Below are positions 59,200 through 64,000 of a stretch of DNA of 64,000 nucleotides, piece by piece. The position numbers and the translations under genes are program-made. The notes beneath the pieces were generated by a model. It was given only the letters and a program-made list of their open reading frames with translations. It searched no databases and was not told the DNA's origin. The first letter of the stretch is position 1; each line of letters opens with the position of its first letter. The stretch lies in contig NZ_CP156989.1 of the NCBI RefSeq assembly GCF_039880525.1, positions 2,108,001-2,172,000 of the forward strand. The letters run 5' to 3'. Origin of the DNA: Agrococcus sp. ProA11 (GTDB taxonomy: Bacteria > Actinomycetota > Actinomycetes > Actinomycetales > Microbacteriaceae).

Positions 59200-62100
59200 C
59201 TACTGGAAGTCGCGGGAGCGGGGGCTCGGCACGTCGAAGCGGTCGAGCCGGTCGGCCAGCAGCGCGATCACGCCCTCGGGCGTGCGCTGCAGCATCCCCC
59301 GCACGATCAGGGCCGGCGCATGCCTCGCCACCTGCCGCGCATGCGCCCACAGCCCCTTCGAGATGATGACGTTGAGCATCCCCGTCTCATCCTCCAGGTT
59401 CATGAACGTCACCCCCTGCGCCGTGCTGGGTCGCTGCCGGTGCGTCACGATGCCTGCCGCCTGCACCCGGCGCCCCTCCTCCGCCTGCGCCAGAGCGGCG
59501 ATCGGCAGCACGCCGCGCCCATCGAGCATGCCTCTCGCGTAGCGCACCGGGTGGTCGCCGGGGGTCACGCCAGTCGCCCAGACGTCGAGCGCCACCTGCT
59601 CCTCGGCGCTCAGGATCGGTAGCAGCGGCGGCTGCAGGCTCACCTGCGAGCCCTCGAGCTGGTCCTCGCGCTCGGTCGAGGCGGGGCCGGCGAGCCACAG
59701 CCCTTCACGGCGGGTCACCCCCAGCCCTTCGAGCGCGCCGGCGGTCGCGAGCGCCTCGAGCTCGCCGCGGTCGAGGTCGGCCCGCCGGGCCAGATCATGG
59801 ATGTCGCGCAGCGGCGCCGCCTCCCGCGCCGCGACGATGCGGTTGGCGGCCGCCGCGCCCACGCCCGTGACGCTCGACAGGCCCATCCGCACCGAGAAGG
59901 CCCCATCGCGGCGGTGCCGGTTGCGCATCGCGAGGGTCTCGGAAGCCACGGGCGGCACGGGCGGCTGTTCGCGCGCCAGGCAGGCGTCGTCGCCGCCGGC
60001 CGCGCACCCGTTCGGTTCGAGCCCGGCGTCGATCGCGGAGCGCACCACGTCGGGCCGCAGCGTCTCGACCCCGTGCCGCAGCGCATCCGCCGTCAGCGTC
60101 TGCGGCGACCAGAACCCCATCGGCTGGCTGCGCAGCAATCCGGCAAGGAACGCCGCCGGGTAGTGCAGTCGCATCCACGACGACGCATAGACGAGCTTCC
60201 CGAACGCGAGCGAGTGGGACTCGGCGAACCCGAAGCCGGCGAACGCCTCGATCTTGCGGTAGATCGACTCGGCGACATCCGGCTCGACGCCGTTGGCCGC
60301 CATGCCGGCGAACAGCTTCGCCTTCAGCGCCGCGATCCGATCGAGTGAGCGCTTCGAGCCGATCGCGCGGCGCAGCTGGTCGGCCTCAGCGGCGTCGAAG
60401 CCGCCCACCGCGACCGACATCTGCATCAGCTGCTCCTGGAACAGCGGCACGCCGAGCGTGCGCTCGAGCACAGGGATCAGGAGCGGATGCGGGTAGGTGA
60501 TCGGCTCTGCTCCCGTGCGGCGGCGGATGTAGGGGTGCACCGCGCCACCCTGGATCGGCCCGGGTCGGATGAGCGCGATCTCGACCACCAGGTCGTAGAA
60601 GCAGCGCGGCTTCAGGCGCGGCAGCGTCGCCATCTGCGCCCGTGACTCCACCTGGAAGATGCCGACGGCATCCCCCTCGCAGAGCATGTCGAAGACGCCG
60701 GCTTCCTCGACGGGGATCGACGCGAGCGTCCACGACTCGCCCAGCTGCTCGGCTGCGAGCGCCATCGTGTGCGACAGCGCGCTGAGCATGCCGAGGCCCA
60801 GCAGGTCGAACTTCACGAGCCCCATCCACTCGCAGTCGTCCTTGTCCCACTGCAGCACCGTGCGGCCGGGCATGCGGGCGGGCTCGATCGGGCAGACCGA
60901 GCCCACCGGCTCCTCGGTGAGCACCATGCCACCGGAGTGGATGCCCAGGTGGCGGGGCGCGTGCAGGAACTCGCCAGCGAGCTCGACGACGGCGTCGGGG
61001 ATGCCGGGGGCTTCGGCCTGCGAGCGCGACTCGACCGACTTCGACCAGGCGTTCTGCTGGCCGACCGCGTAGCCGAGCGCCTTCGCGGCGTCGCGCACCG
61101 CCGACTTCGGTCGGTAGGTGATGACGTTGGCGACCTGGGCGGCGTTGCGTCTGCCGTACTGCTCGTAGACGTGCTGGATGACCTCCTCGCGGCGGCCGGC
61201 GTCGAAGTCGATGTCGATGTCGGGCTCCTCCTCGCGCATCATCGAGATGAAGCGCTCGAACGGCAGCCGGTAGCGGATCGGGTCGACGGCGGTGATGCCG
61301 AGGATGAAGCAGACGGCGCTCGCGACGGCGCTGCCGCGGCCCTGGCAGAGGATGCCTCGATCGTGCGCGAACTCGGCGATCTCGAACACGATCAGGAAGT
61401 AGCCCGCGAAGCCCTTCTCGTCGATGAGGCCGAGCTCGTGCTCGAGCCGGGCGGCGACCTCGGGGCTCGGACGGCCGTCGACGGCGTCGTAGACGCGGGG
61501 CAGCCGCTCGGCGACGAGCGCTCGCAGCCAGCTCATGGGCGTGTGCCCCTCCGGCACCTCGACGTTCGGCAGCCGAGGGGATGCGGCGCGCAGGTCGAAG
61601 GCGAGCTCGCGGCCGAGCGCCGCAGCCGTGTCGATCGCACCGGGAAACGCGCGGAAGCGACGGGCCATCACGGTGCCGCTGCGCAGCGAGGGGACGCCGC
61701 CGGCCGGCAGCCAGGCGTCGAGCTCGTCGATGGAGCGGCGGGCGCGCACCGCGGCGACCGCATCGCCGAGCCGCTGCCGGGTGGGCGAGGCGATGTGCGC
61801 ATTCGTGGTGGCGATCACCGGCAGCCCCCGGCGCTCCGCGAGCTCGGCGAGCACCCGGTTGCGCTCGAAGTCGCGCGGGTCGCCGATGTCGCTGAGCTCC
61901 ACCACGACGCGGTCGCGGCCGAACAGCGACGCGAGCCGATCGAGCTCCGTGCCCGCCGCATCCGCGCCTGCCGCCGCCGAGCCGAGCCGCTCGAACGCCT
62001 GCCGCACGCTGCCCTTGCGACAGCCCGAGAGCACCATCCACTCCCCGTTCGCCGTCTCGGCGAGCTGCTCGAGCTCGAACACCGGCCTGCCCTTCTCGCC

Positions 62101-62595
62101 CGGGCCGTGCATGTCGGAGGTCAGGTAGCCGTCGGTGAGCGCGGTGGCGAGCGCCGTGTAGCCGGCCGGGCCGGTCGCGAGCGCCACGAGGTGACTGCCG
62201 TCGGGGTCGGGGATGCCGTGCTGAGGCGCCTCGAGGCCGAGCGTGAACTCGGTGCCGAACACGGTCGGCAGCTCGGCCTCTGCGGCGGCCTCGGCAAAGC
62301 GCACGGCGCCGTAGAGCCCATCGTGGTCGACGAGCGCGAGCGCCTCGAGCCCGAGCCTGCGCGCCTCGTTGACGAGCTCTGCCGGGCTGGAGGCACCGTC
62401 GAGGAAGGAGTAGTGCGAGTGCGCGTGCAGCTCGGCATAGGGGGTCGTCGCCCCTGGCGCGGGCACGCGGATGCGCGGCCGGCGCGCCTCCTCGAGCTCG
62501 GCCGCGACGGCGGTCTTGCCCGCGCTGACGTCGCGGTCGCTGAGGATGCCCTCGAGCTCGCGCCAGGGCATCGACGGGTTGTTCCAGCCAGCCAT
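59200..62595 (-). CDS. dnaE2: Error-prone DNA polymerase DnaE2
   Basis: 1131 residues, C-family polymerase for damage tolerance and mutagenesis. PHP domain from about residue 52 (AELHAHSHYSFLDGAS, LVDHDGLYGAVRFA). Palm catalytic acids in EEPDIDIDFDAGRREEVIQHVYEQYG; fingers and the DnaE2-typical GFGFAESHSLAFGKLVYASSWMRLHYPAAFLAGLL; HhH SVTGVGAAAANRIV; OB fold AAGIVTHRQRPSTAQGVTFMNLEDETGMLNVI. Lacks the long C-terminal clamp-binding tail of DnaE1. Partner of ImuB, encoded directly upstream. GGGGGAG precedes the ATG at 62595. Confidence 0.95.
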   Translation of the reverse strand: MAGWNNPSMPWRELEGILSDRDVSAGKTAVAAELEEARRPRIRVPAPGATTPYAELHAHSHYSFLDGASSPAELVNEARRLGLEALALVDHDGLYGAVRFAEAAAEAELPTVFGTEFTLGLEAPQHGIPDPDGSHLVALATGPAGYTALATALTDGYLTSDMHGPGEKGRPVFELEQLAETANGEWMVLSGCRKGSVRQAFERLGSAAAGADAAGTELDRLASLFGRDRVVVELSDIGDPRDFERNRVLAELAERRGLPVIATTNAHIASPTRQRLGDAVAAVRARRSIDELDAWLPAGGVPSLRSGTVMARRFRAFPGAIDTAAALGRELAFDLRAASPRLPNVEVPEGHTPMSWLRALVAERLPRVYDAVDGRPSPEVAARLEHELGLIDEKGFAGYFLIVFEIAEFAHDRGILCQGRGSAVASAVCFILGITAVDPIRYRLPFERFISMMREEEPDIDIDFDAGRREEVIQHVYEQYGRRNAAQVANVITYRPKSAVRDAAKALGYAVGQQNAWSKSVESRSQAEAPGIPDAVVELAGEFLHAPRHLGIHSGGMVLTEEPVGSVCPIEPARMPGRTVLQWDKDDCEWMGLVKFDLLGLGMLSALSHTMALAAEQLGESWTLASIPVEEAGVFDMLCEGDAVGIFQVESRAQMATLPRLKPRCFYDLVVEIALIRPGPIQGGAVHPYIRRRTGAEPITYPHPLLIPVLERTLGVPLFQEQLMQMSVAVGGFDAAEADQLRRAIGSKRSLDRIAALKAKLFAGMAANGVEPDVAESIYRKIEAFAGFGFAESHSLAFGKLVYASSWMRLHYPAAFLAGLLRSQPMGFWSPQTLTADALRHGVETLRPDVVRSAIDAGLEPNGCAAGGDDACLAREQPPVPPVASETLAMRNRHRRDGAFSVRMGLSSVTGVGAAAANRIVAAREAAPLRDIHDLARRADLDRGELEALATAGALEGLGVTRREGLWLAGPASTEREDQLEGSQVSLQPPLLPILSAEEQVALDVWATGVTPGDHPVRYARGMLDGRGVLPIAALAQAEEGRRVQAAGIVTHRQRPSTAQGVTFMNLEDETGMLNVIISKGLWAHARQVARHAPALIVRGMLQRTPEGVIALLADRLDRFDVPSPRSRDFQ

Positions 62596-62607: not shown

Positions 62608-62680
62608 CGTCCGTCAACCGGTCCAGTGGTCGCGCAGCCGAAATATCGGTCCGCCAGACCACAGGACCGGTTGACGGACG
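62608..62680. repeat. 24-bp inverted repeat upstream of dnaE2
   Basis: Arms 62608-62631 and 62657-62680 match at 23 of 24 bases, 25-base loop with an AAATAT centre and an inner CCGA/TCGG helix. It fills most of the 121-base gap between imuB and dnaE2, starting 12 bases before the dnaE2 start codon. No LexA box is seen beside it. Confidence 0.88.
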
Positions 62681-62716: not shown

Positions 62717-64000
62717 TCAGGCATAGCGGCCCTCCGCGAGCCATGCGCCATCGACGTGCAGCAGCACCCACGCCTCGCCCTCGCCGTCGAGCAGCTGCAC
62801 GCGGTGCACCGTGTCGCCCAGCTCGCGGCGCCGGATCGGCCACGGCCCCGCCCACGCCACGACTCGGCGGCGAGGCGCCGCGGGTGGTGAGAACACGGCG
62901 GGGGATGCATCGCGCACGTCGAGCGCACCGGGCTCGACCGAGCGCCCCTCCGCGTCGGTGAGCAGCACCGGCAGCGGCGGCCGGAAGACGACGCTCGGGC
63001 GCGGGGCCGGCAGCGCGCCCGGCCATGGCCCGGCGGACTGCACCGGTGCCGCATCCCCCCAAGGCGTGAGCACACCCCGCTCGGCCAGCAGCCGGCCACC
63101 ACCGGTGGCGGCGGTCAGCACCGCCTCGCGGCCGAGCATGCGCTGCAGCCGTTCGAGCGCGTGCTTGGTGCGGTCGTCGATGTCGCCGCCGCCCCACAGC
63201 CCCGGCATGTGCTCGGCGTCGGCGTCGAGGCGCTCGGGGCTCGCCTGCACCTCCACGAGCGCCGAGCCGAGCTCGCTCTCGGTGAGCTGCCACCGCATCC
63301 GATCGACGATGTCGCCCGCGCGCAGGAAGCCGGGTTGGCGCCAGAGCCGCTCGCTCACGCGCCCCTCCTCGCCGCGCAGCAGGATGCGGATCTCGCTGCA
63401 CACCAGCCGCTGCTCCGCCAGCTGCCGCACGAAGCGGTCGACCGGCTCGCGCACCGCGAGCGCCAGTTCGGCGACGCCCTCGATGCCCGGTTCGAAGACG
63501 AGCCGCAGGGCCCGCTCCTCGCCCAGCCCCGCCTCATCGATGCGTCGATCGTCGAGCCCGCGGGCGCGGGCGAGCGCGACGAGGCCGGCGGGGCCGAAGC
63601 GGTCGCGCACGCTGTCGTCGGGCAGCTGCCCGAAGCCGCCGAGCGTGTGCACCCCGAGGCGATGGAGCATGCTCGGCAGCTCGTCGTCGCCAAGCACGCT
63701 CACCGGCAGCGAGCTCAGGAACTCGCGGCTGCGCCCGTCGGGCACGATCGTCTCGCTGCCCGCGCCCACCGCGAGCTCCGCCGTGAAGCGGTCGTCGGCA
63801 ACGCCGAAGGCCGCAGTCAGCCCGAGTGGCGCGAGCGCAGCGCGCACCGCCTCGAGCGCGCGCGGCTCGGAGCCGTAGAACCTGCTCGCCCCGCGCATCC
63901 GGAAGGCCAGCGCACCATCGCCGATGGGCTGCGCCGCCGGCACCACCGCGAGCACCGCGCGCACGACGCGCTCGAAGGCGAGCGCCTCCCCCACCGGATC
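62717..64000 (-). CDS. imuB: ImuB-like Y-family polymerase homologue, partial
   Basis: 428 residues visible; the N-terminus lies beyond the window end. Y-family palm/thumb pieces: GALAFRMRGASRFYGSEPRALEAVRAAL, TAAFGVADDRFTAELAVG, LHRLGVHTLGGFGQLPDDSVRDRFG, then EERALRLVFEPGIEGVAELALAVREPVDRFVRQLAEQ and a long C-terminal region rich in Pro and Arg ending VLLHVDGAWLAEGRYA. ImuB lacks catalytic carboxylates and acts as an adaptor between DnaE2, the clamp and ImuA'. The order imuB-dnaE2 supports this. Confidence 0.9.
   Translation of the reverse strand, partial: DPVGEALAFERVVRAVLAVVPAAQPIGDGALAFRMRGASRFYGSEPRALEAVRAALAPLGLTAAFGVADDRFTAELAVGAGSETIVPDGRSREFLSSLPVSVLGDDELPSMLHRLGVHTLGGFGQLPDDSVRDRFGPAGLVALARARGLDDRRIDEAGLGEERALRLVFEPGIEGVAELALAVREPVDRFVRQLAEQRLVCSEIRILLRGEEGRVSERLWRQPGFLRAGDIVDRMRWQLTESELGSALVEVQASPERLDADAEHMPGLWGGGDIDDRTKHALERLQRMLGREAVLTAATGGGRLLAERGVLTPWGDAAPVQSAGPWPGALPAPRPSVVFRPPLPVLLTDAEGRSVEPGALDVRDASPAVFSPPAAPRRRVVAWAGPWPIRRRELGDTVHRVQLLDGEGEAWVLLHVDGAWLAEGRYA

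Follow-up and report, generated by a model that had tools for sequence, protein, structure and literature searches.

A dispersed, fixed-length intergenic palindrome of Agrococcus, present at the imuB-dnaE2 junction and on both sides of a DUF559 nuclease gene

The window analyzed here, a stretch of 64,000 nucleotides from Agrococcus sp. ProA11, contains dnaE2, encoding an error-prone DNA polymerase (59200-62595, minus strand), and its upstream neighbor imuB (62717-64000, minus strand), which runs off the window; the name dnaE2 follows the initial annotation and the sequence, and the name imuB follows the initial annotation. Between the two genes lies an inverted repeat whose reported geometry we confirmed: two 24-nt arms, at 62608-62631 and 62657-62680 on the plus strand, are complementary at 23 of 24 positions and separated by 25 nt, with 12 nt between the nearer arm and the dnaE2 start codon (ORF start at 62595, minus strand). 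The 25-nt "loop" can also pair with itself over much of its length (28 of the 36 mirrored positions pair in the 73-mer), and the feature, in the form found in this genome, is a 73-bp near-palindrome without strand (62608-62680, centered on 62644). Within it sits a 61-bp core, likewise without strand (62614-62674), that is common to the family described below. This core consists of a left conserved box, TCAACCGG (62614-62621, plus strand), 45 bp of interior, and a right conserved box, CCGGTTGA (62667-62674, plus strand), which is the inverted copy of the left; 42 bp separate the core from the imuB stop codon.

The inverted repeat is far from chance. A 121-nt region around it folds as RNA at -86.1 kcal/mol on the minus strand and -80.6 on the plus strand, compared to shuffle means of -49.1 and -42.9 (z-scores of -9.35 and -10.55), and none of 200 shuffles folded as well as the real sequence on either strand. 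An Rfam scan of the region returned nine matches, none of which reached the gathering score; since sub-threshold matches of this kind (eight microRNA models and VA RNA) are expected for any long hairpin, we rejected a known RNA family.

The initial annotation had proposed searching the genome for other copies and had counted the lack of a second one against its reading. We found many. The genome of the window (G000) is a single contig of 2,665,899 bp, numbered from dnaA (base 1), and a 121-bp query against it gave 32 matches; these reduce to 17 places, since a palindromic element is hit on either strand. A pattern search added a copy at 270899, and one more lies 275 bp behind a gene for a DUF559 nuclease, bringing the family to at least 19 members including the dnaE2 copy. 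The ends, TCRACCGG...CCGGTYGA, are nearly invariant and lie 61 bp apart end to end, or 73 bp when the longer arms of this genome are included. When we searched for TCRACCGG-N(31 to 61)-CCGGTYGA in the same genome, 15 of 15 among the matches listed had exactly 45 inner bases, which corresponds to 61 bp. In addition, 31 copies from this genome and its relatives, cut by their end boxes, aligned without gaps over 73 columns at a mean pairwise identity of 62%. These copies, nearly all of them intergenic, and the candidate enzyme described below lend support to the second suggestion of the initial annotation, a small non-autonomous element with terminal repeats. The same chromosome also carries two similar 57-bp palindromes, CGACCGGTACCAA...GTACCGGTCG (G000:C1:2337575-2337631 and 2337758-2337814), which lie 183 bp apart and are unlike the described family.

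Searching the genome contigs of 84,980 species for the boxes together with an inner TGG/CCA yielded 29 DNA stretches, all of them from Agrococcus (A. terreus, A. sp. HG114, and A. sp. Marseille-P2731). The 61-bp pattern had no match in the viral contigs searched, and spread by viruses was dropped as an explanation. Other Agrococcus species carry the same boxes around quite different self-complementary interiors, and several carry further families. TCAACGT...ACGTTGA gave 68 matches, spread over five of eight genomes. Of these, 65 have the exact 61-bp length (14 in G001, 15 in G011, 16 in G010, and 20 in G018); the genome of the window has none. The family TCAGACGG...CCGTCTGA occurs four times in G010 and four times in G018, always at exactly 62 bp (8/8), and is absent from the remaining five of the seven genomes searched. 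For the TCAACGTG family, with 35 ungapped copies from G011 and G018, the observed percentage of paired positions and covariation score were reached by none of 500 shuffles, and slid controls fell far below both values.

In three genomes (G011, G018, and G016), a single gene of approximately 289 codons lies between two elements that are spaced about 1 kb. A DUF559 profile scan of the enclosed-gene products scored 39.1 and 37.4 bits for two members, above the curated cut-off of 20.6, and the member in the genome of the window scored 34.9 bits. Across the 24 Agrococcus genomes searched, the close group comprises 17 genes in 16 genomes, with separate, weaker paralogues besides. One close-group gene, in G010 (L188, L198; G010:C6:150477-151339), is split between two frames, and the elements that persist on either side of it are degenerate.

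The DUF559 and MTES_1575 profiles matched 16 of 16 close-group proteins, as did the PADLOC homing endonuclease model, and no transposase model was listed. One PADLOC AbiEi model matched 11 of 16, the match in the protein from the genome of the window lying ahead of the nuclease domain and being weak (E 0.029). Eight residues are invariant in 16 of 16 aligned proteins (D215, E225, D227, W231, H232, D241, R244, and D245), of which we take D215, E225, D227, H232, and D241 to be the catalytic residues of a DUF559/Vsr-like nuclease. Profile matches in the PDB were led by 3r3p, a "Mobile intron protein" (1.9e-8), and 3hrl, an "Endonuclease-Like Protein" (1.3e-6), and a predicted structure of the partner protein, made from a two-sequence alignment, had a mean pLDDT of 48.6, too low for the model to be used. 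As judged from these profiles, the partner is a protein of about 290 residues with a predicted C-terminal DUF559 nuclease domain of the Vsr-like PD-(D/E)XK, homing-endonuclease-like type. Relatives of the protein occur in at least 106 of 150 sampled Microbacteriaceae genomes.

Of the 17 close-group loci, 14 have elements on both sides of the gene, two on one side, and one on neither; this is a visual judgement based on the best mirrored 61-bp segment, with degenerate copies counted. The one-sided loci are the second G018 gene and the G017 gene, and the G004 nuclease has no recognizable flanking element; several of the 14, including those in G006, G003, and G010, have a degenerate copy on one side. 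The typical distances are 62-108 bp from the upstream element to the nuclease start and 3-58 bp from the stop to the downstream element. In the genome of the window, one element lies 108 bp ahead of the start of the nuclease gene (415542-416399, minus strand) and another 275 bp beyond the end of the match. When we tabulated close-group nucleases and elements over the 24 genomes, 16 had both, none had the nuclease only, two had elements only, and six had neither (Fisher test p 2e-4, ignoring kinship); presence in this table was assigned by hand, partly from the matches listed, and the entry for G004 rests on two exact-length matches. Elements without a close-group nuclease were found in G013 (about ten) and G014 (few), in each case among the matches listed.

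Boxes read beside three nuclease genes, in G001, G005, and G021, predicted genome-wide families before those families were searched for. In G001 and G005, the boxes first met beside the nuclease genes were TCAACGGAGC and TCAACGGC, and the pattern predicted from these flanks, TCAACGG...CCGTTGA, has 15 copies in G001, eight in G005, and eight in the partial genome G009, all 61 bp long. Over 24 genomes, 38 of 44 matches to it were exactly 61 bp, and none came from the genome of the window. G021 has no close-group gene, and there two matching palindromes flank a distant DUF559 paralogue; the box read from them, GCAGGCGATC...GATCGCCTGC, occurs in 21 copies in that genome, all 21 at 57 bp, and 48 times in the genus, of which 38 are at 57 bp. 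The single copies of this box in G001 and G011 likewise adjoin DUF559 paralogues. Separately, G023 carries both 55-bp and 57-bp versions of GCAGGCGATC-box palindromes, and at G023:C1:2727581-2727773 and 2812048-2812208 such palindromes are paired, about 100-140 bp start to start.

On a tree of the nucleases, a box is common to the members of five of six two-member clades, the exception being G005/G017, where two different boxes occur. The two nucleases of G018 belong to different clades and each lies beside its own family, and the second of them, which has TCAGACGG as its neighbor, falls inside a clade of TCAACCGG. Since TCAACCGG appears in three separate clades with differing interiors, the agreement between box and clade is broad and not one to one.

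For 20 distant Agrococcus DUF559 paralogues, we compared the 5' and 3' flanks of each gene and found that six exceeded the 99th percentile of similarity, compared to 3 of 233 controls (Mann-Whitney p 1.3e-7). This count refers to controls matched to the 400-nt 5' flank of the paralogues, and a control at 320 nt gives 11 of 20. For 28 loci in other Microbacteriaceae genera, all scored with 320-nt flanks, five exceeded the 99th percentile compared to 4 of 306 controls (Mann-Whitney p 6.5e-5), and three of the 28 did so against a second control set. Palindrome scores alone were not raised over controls at these 28 loci, and the flank signal is weaker outside Agrococcus. Individual loci with palindromes on both sides were also seen. 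L208 and L224, DUF559 genes of other Microbacteriaceae genera, have long matching palindromes on both sides (84 and 91 + 75 bp), and the G015 paralogues L189 and L201 have their own: the palindromes of one pair end in GCGCTGAA...TTCAGCGC, and in the other pair the two copies are identical.

To place the elements relative to genes, we used calls from a codon-model gene finder that was checked on the window only. Among 80 copies from five genomes, 79 are intergenic and one was called inside a gene; 45 lie between tandem genes, 21 between convergent genes, and 13 between divergent genes, at a median distance of 12 nt from a neighboring 3' end and 47 nt from a 5' end. The same copies lie at a mean of 0.347 of the half-chromosome from dnaA (KS p 7.7e-7). 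Taken genome by genome, the p values for this bias range from 4e-5 in G000 and 0.005 in G018 to 0.08 in G001, 0.20 in G016, and 0.37 in G011, so that placement on the origin side is a bias and no rule; a reading of the elements as organizers of the chromosome was set aside because origin-side placement varies between genomes. In G000, the 18 placed copies lie mostly on the origin side, and the interval from 416.6 kb to 1811.7 kb is free of them. We examined both flanks of 149 distinct copies, 298 in all; none contains four T in a row, and a search for terminator-like sites near the window copy gave nothing. The terminator reading was rejected because the flanks are without T runs.

We compared 260 nt upstream of dnaE2 at 21 loci from 20 genomes. 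As judged from this upstream sequence, imuB precedes dnaE2 in 14 of 20 genomes, and 11 of these 14 junctions hold an exact-length element, the families differing from one to another: TCRACCGG at 61 bp in seven genomes, TCAACGT at 61 bp in two, and TCAGACGG at 62 bp in two. Read by eye, the remaining junctions show a degenerate relative in G004, an unrelated GC-rich hairpin in G005, and no element in G017. Either the junction copy is old, or several families have occupied the site in turn. In the six genomes where dnaE2 has no imuB upstream within 260 nt (G014, G016, G022, G008, G021, and G023; L076, L080, L081, L084, L085, and L086), dnaE2 is instead preceded by an SOS-like palindrome containing TACGTTCGA, and the inspected sequence holds no element.

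The frequent occupation of this junction by several families speaks for a regulatory RNA hairpin in the imuB-dnaE2 transcript, which could mask the dnaE2 ribosome site, stabilize the 3' end of imuB, or terminate transcription and thereby uncouple the two genes. The very stable fold, the closeness of the elements to gene 3' ends (median 12 nt), and a covariation score above all 500 shuffles are consistent with such a role. However, at the seven TCRACCGG junctions the end of the 61-bp core lies 18, 86, 31, 84, 28, 43, and 34 nt from the dnaE2 start. Since this distance varies from 18 to 86 nt, the hairpin usually does not adjoin the ribosome site and masking is not conserved. The same elements also follow stop codons and lie between convergent and divergent genes, so masking of the ribosome site, which the initial annotation had put forward, is unsupported as the purpose of the element. 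The 13 of 80 copies between divergent genes lie where neither neighbor's transcript would end with the element, and the lack of four-T runs, of a terminator-like site near the window copy, and of any Rfam match above threshold argues in the same direction. The RNA reading further leaves both the flanking of nuclease genes and the fixed length unexplained. We consider it decidedly unlikely as a general account, while a local effect of the hairpin on dnaE2 translation in its own species is possible.

Between G018 and its close relative G010, elements occupy identical positions. In seven such pairs the flanks are 87-97% identical and the elements 77%-100% identical, and at two further sites the two genomes hold elements of different families (boxes read by eye). 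Persistence of the site with turnover of its sequence is thus seen at some sites. Other sites were observed to hold different families and to be empty in other species (L234 vs L144; L021 vs L133, L160, and L049), and in their empty counterparts the neighboring genes appear to abut or overlap. Of nine double-sided changes within the orthologous pairs, two keep the pairing in both species; a further 28 changes affect one side. Since the changes are mostly one-sided, upkeep of the inner stem is not strict, and we make no claim of strong selection on it even though covariation exceeds that of the shuffles.

Template-switch (quasipalindrome) correction can yield compensatory-looking changes without selection. 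The elements might accordingly be old repeats kept symmetrical in this way, with their proximity to DUF559 genes reflecting a shared insertion hot spot, and the interior does diverge faster than the flanks at some orthologous sites. Such correction would explain neither a length that is fixed across families nor the way in which boxes read beside nuclease genes predicted genome-wide families, and we give this account very little credence.

Sites that persist while the box family changes would also suit operators. The DUF559 protein would in that case be mainly a regulator, binding through its AbiEi-like front part to the palindromes by its own gene and at about twenty intergenic sites. The AbiEi matches in 11 of 16 proteins, weak as the one from the genome of the window is (E 0.029), point this way, as do the invariant outer boxes, which lie 53 bp apart center to center, near five helical turns. 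On the other hand, many copies immediately follow stop codons or separate convergent genes, positions ill suited to an operator, and flanking of the nuclease gene on both sides would be unusual for one. The presumed nuclease residues, moreover, are invariant. We therefore regard the operator reading as unlikely.

Comparisons with element-less relatives bear on how the elements arrive. The missing stretch exceeds the element, and precise insertion was not seen in any filled/empty comparison; ten such comparisons showed no target duplication, only one pair among them having flank identity above 95%. In this cleanest pair, G016/G014, the flanks are about 96.6% identical and the difference is about 90 bp. 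An ordinary miniature inverted-repeat transposable element (MITE), moved by a conventional transposase and with the nuclease gene as a passenger, would be dispersed, intergenic, and non-coding, with inverted ends and species-specific families, all of which is observed here. The Agrococcus elements depart from this picture in being palindromic over their whole length, in their fixed length, and in empty sites without target duplication, and the same kind of gene adjoins each family across species and clades. A MITE of this ordinary sort is very unlikely.

The enzyme-palindrome partnership itself is apparent from the gene between two copies, the box linked to the enzyme, the fixed length, and the intergenic dispersal. 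The reading that we favor, and that is probably correct, is that the repeat in front of dnaE2 is a dispersed, non-autonomous, intergenic palindrome of fixed length that is recognized and spread by a DUF559 nuclease encoded between two of its copies. We infer the cleavage and mobility of the elements from their arrangement. Several observations count against this reading: the lack of a precise insertion in the filled/empty comparisons, the elements of G013 and G014 that have no close-group partner, the G004 nuclease with its bare flanks, the imperfect agreement between box and clade, the weaker flank signal outside Agrococcus, and the loosely kept inner stem. The nuclease would recognize the box, the hairpin, or both, most easily as single-stranded DNA or as a cruciform extruded during replication, and would then cut or nick the element, after which repair may copy or replace it. 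Cutting followed by repair would explain both the spread to new intergenic sites and the replacement of one family by another at a single site. Homing endonucleases and TnpA-REP, each in its own way, spread elements by a cut or nick followed by repair. The box spacing given above is an arithmetical one, and a fixed length would fit a protein or dimer that gauges the distance between two boxes. The imuB-dnaE2 copy would be a long-lived passenger at a tolerated site, and any effect on dnaE2 expression would be secondary.

The closest known parallel is REP/RAYT, in which short extragenic palindromes are dispersed as species-specific families and the enzyme gene is flanked by copies of the repeat, as is the case for the Agrococcus elements. 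One study describes REPs as lying mostly downstream of genes, with the enzyme gene flanked by copies, and CGTC repeats as lacking a dedicated transposase (PMC3733652); its main text mentions neither "Actinobacteria" nor "Vsr" nor "DUF559". The REP/RAYT enzyme is a Y1 (HUH) tyrosine transposase, whereas the gene flanked in Agrococcus encodes an unrelated DUF559 nuclease. REP units, moreover, are 20-40 bp long and carry an unpaired GTAG or CGTC tag, while the Agrococcus cores are 57-62 bp long, paired to their ends, and untagged. With two defining features shared and two different (enzyme class and unit anatomy), we regard the elements as working like REP/RAYT and do not file them as a member.

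By sequence profile, the best structural relative of the nuclease domain is 3r3p, presumably I-Bth0305I, which places the domain close to the Vsr-like (EDxHD-type) homing endonucleases. The known enzymes of this kind, whether intron-encoded or free-standing, home into one site, unlike the Agrococcus nuclease genes, which lie between palindromes present at many sites. VsrA of Caulobacter is similar in its Vsr-like DUF559 domain, and it is reported to cause an SOS response in a subset of cells that lack the methylase ScmA (PMC12907096); the main text of that paper does not contain "Palindrom", "inverted repeat", or "hairpin". Bacterial MITEs resemble the Agrococcus elements in being non-coding, intergenically dispersed, and bounded by inverted ends, and differ from them in that the Agrococcus elements are fully palindromic and of fixed length, with no target duplication seen. 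Integron attC sites are imperfect palindromes that are recognized by fold and not by sequence. They form cassette arrays, while the Agrococcus elements are dispersed singly. Within open-licence PubMed Central, covered by titles and the openings of abstracts, we found no paper that pairs DUF559 with palindromic repeats, and the partnership looks like one that is undescribed in the literature searched.

If the favored reading is true, REP/RAYT would be joined in bacteria by a second partnership of repeat and enzyme, one based on an unrelated nuclease. The question of what moves repeats without a transposase, such as the CGTC repeats, would also gain a candidate kind of answer. Lengths of exactly 57, 61, and 62 bp place a sharp constraint on the mechanism. 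DUF559 is still listed in Pfam as a "protein of unknown function" family, and it would gain a testable job if each of its relatives carries its own palindromes. More tentatively, the DUF559 nucleases of Microbacteriaceae may form a new class of bacterial selfish DNA, in which each lineage owns a palindrome family with a box and a fixed length of its own, lives between two of the copies, drives their spread through intergenic space, and ousts rival families from shared sites. If so, the many actinobacterial DUF559 genes would represent a large population of enzyme-palindrome pairs.
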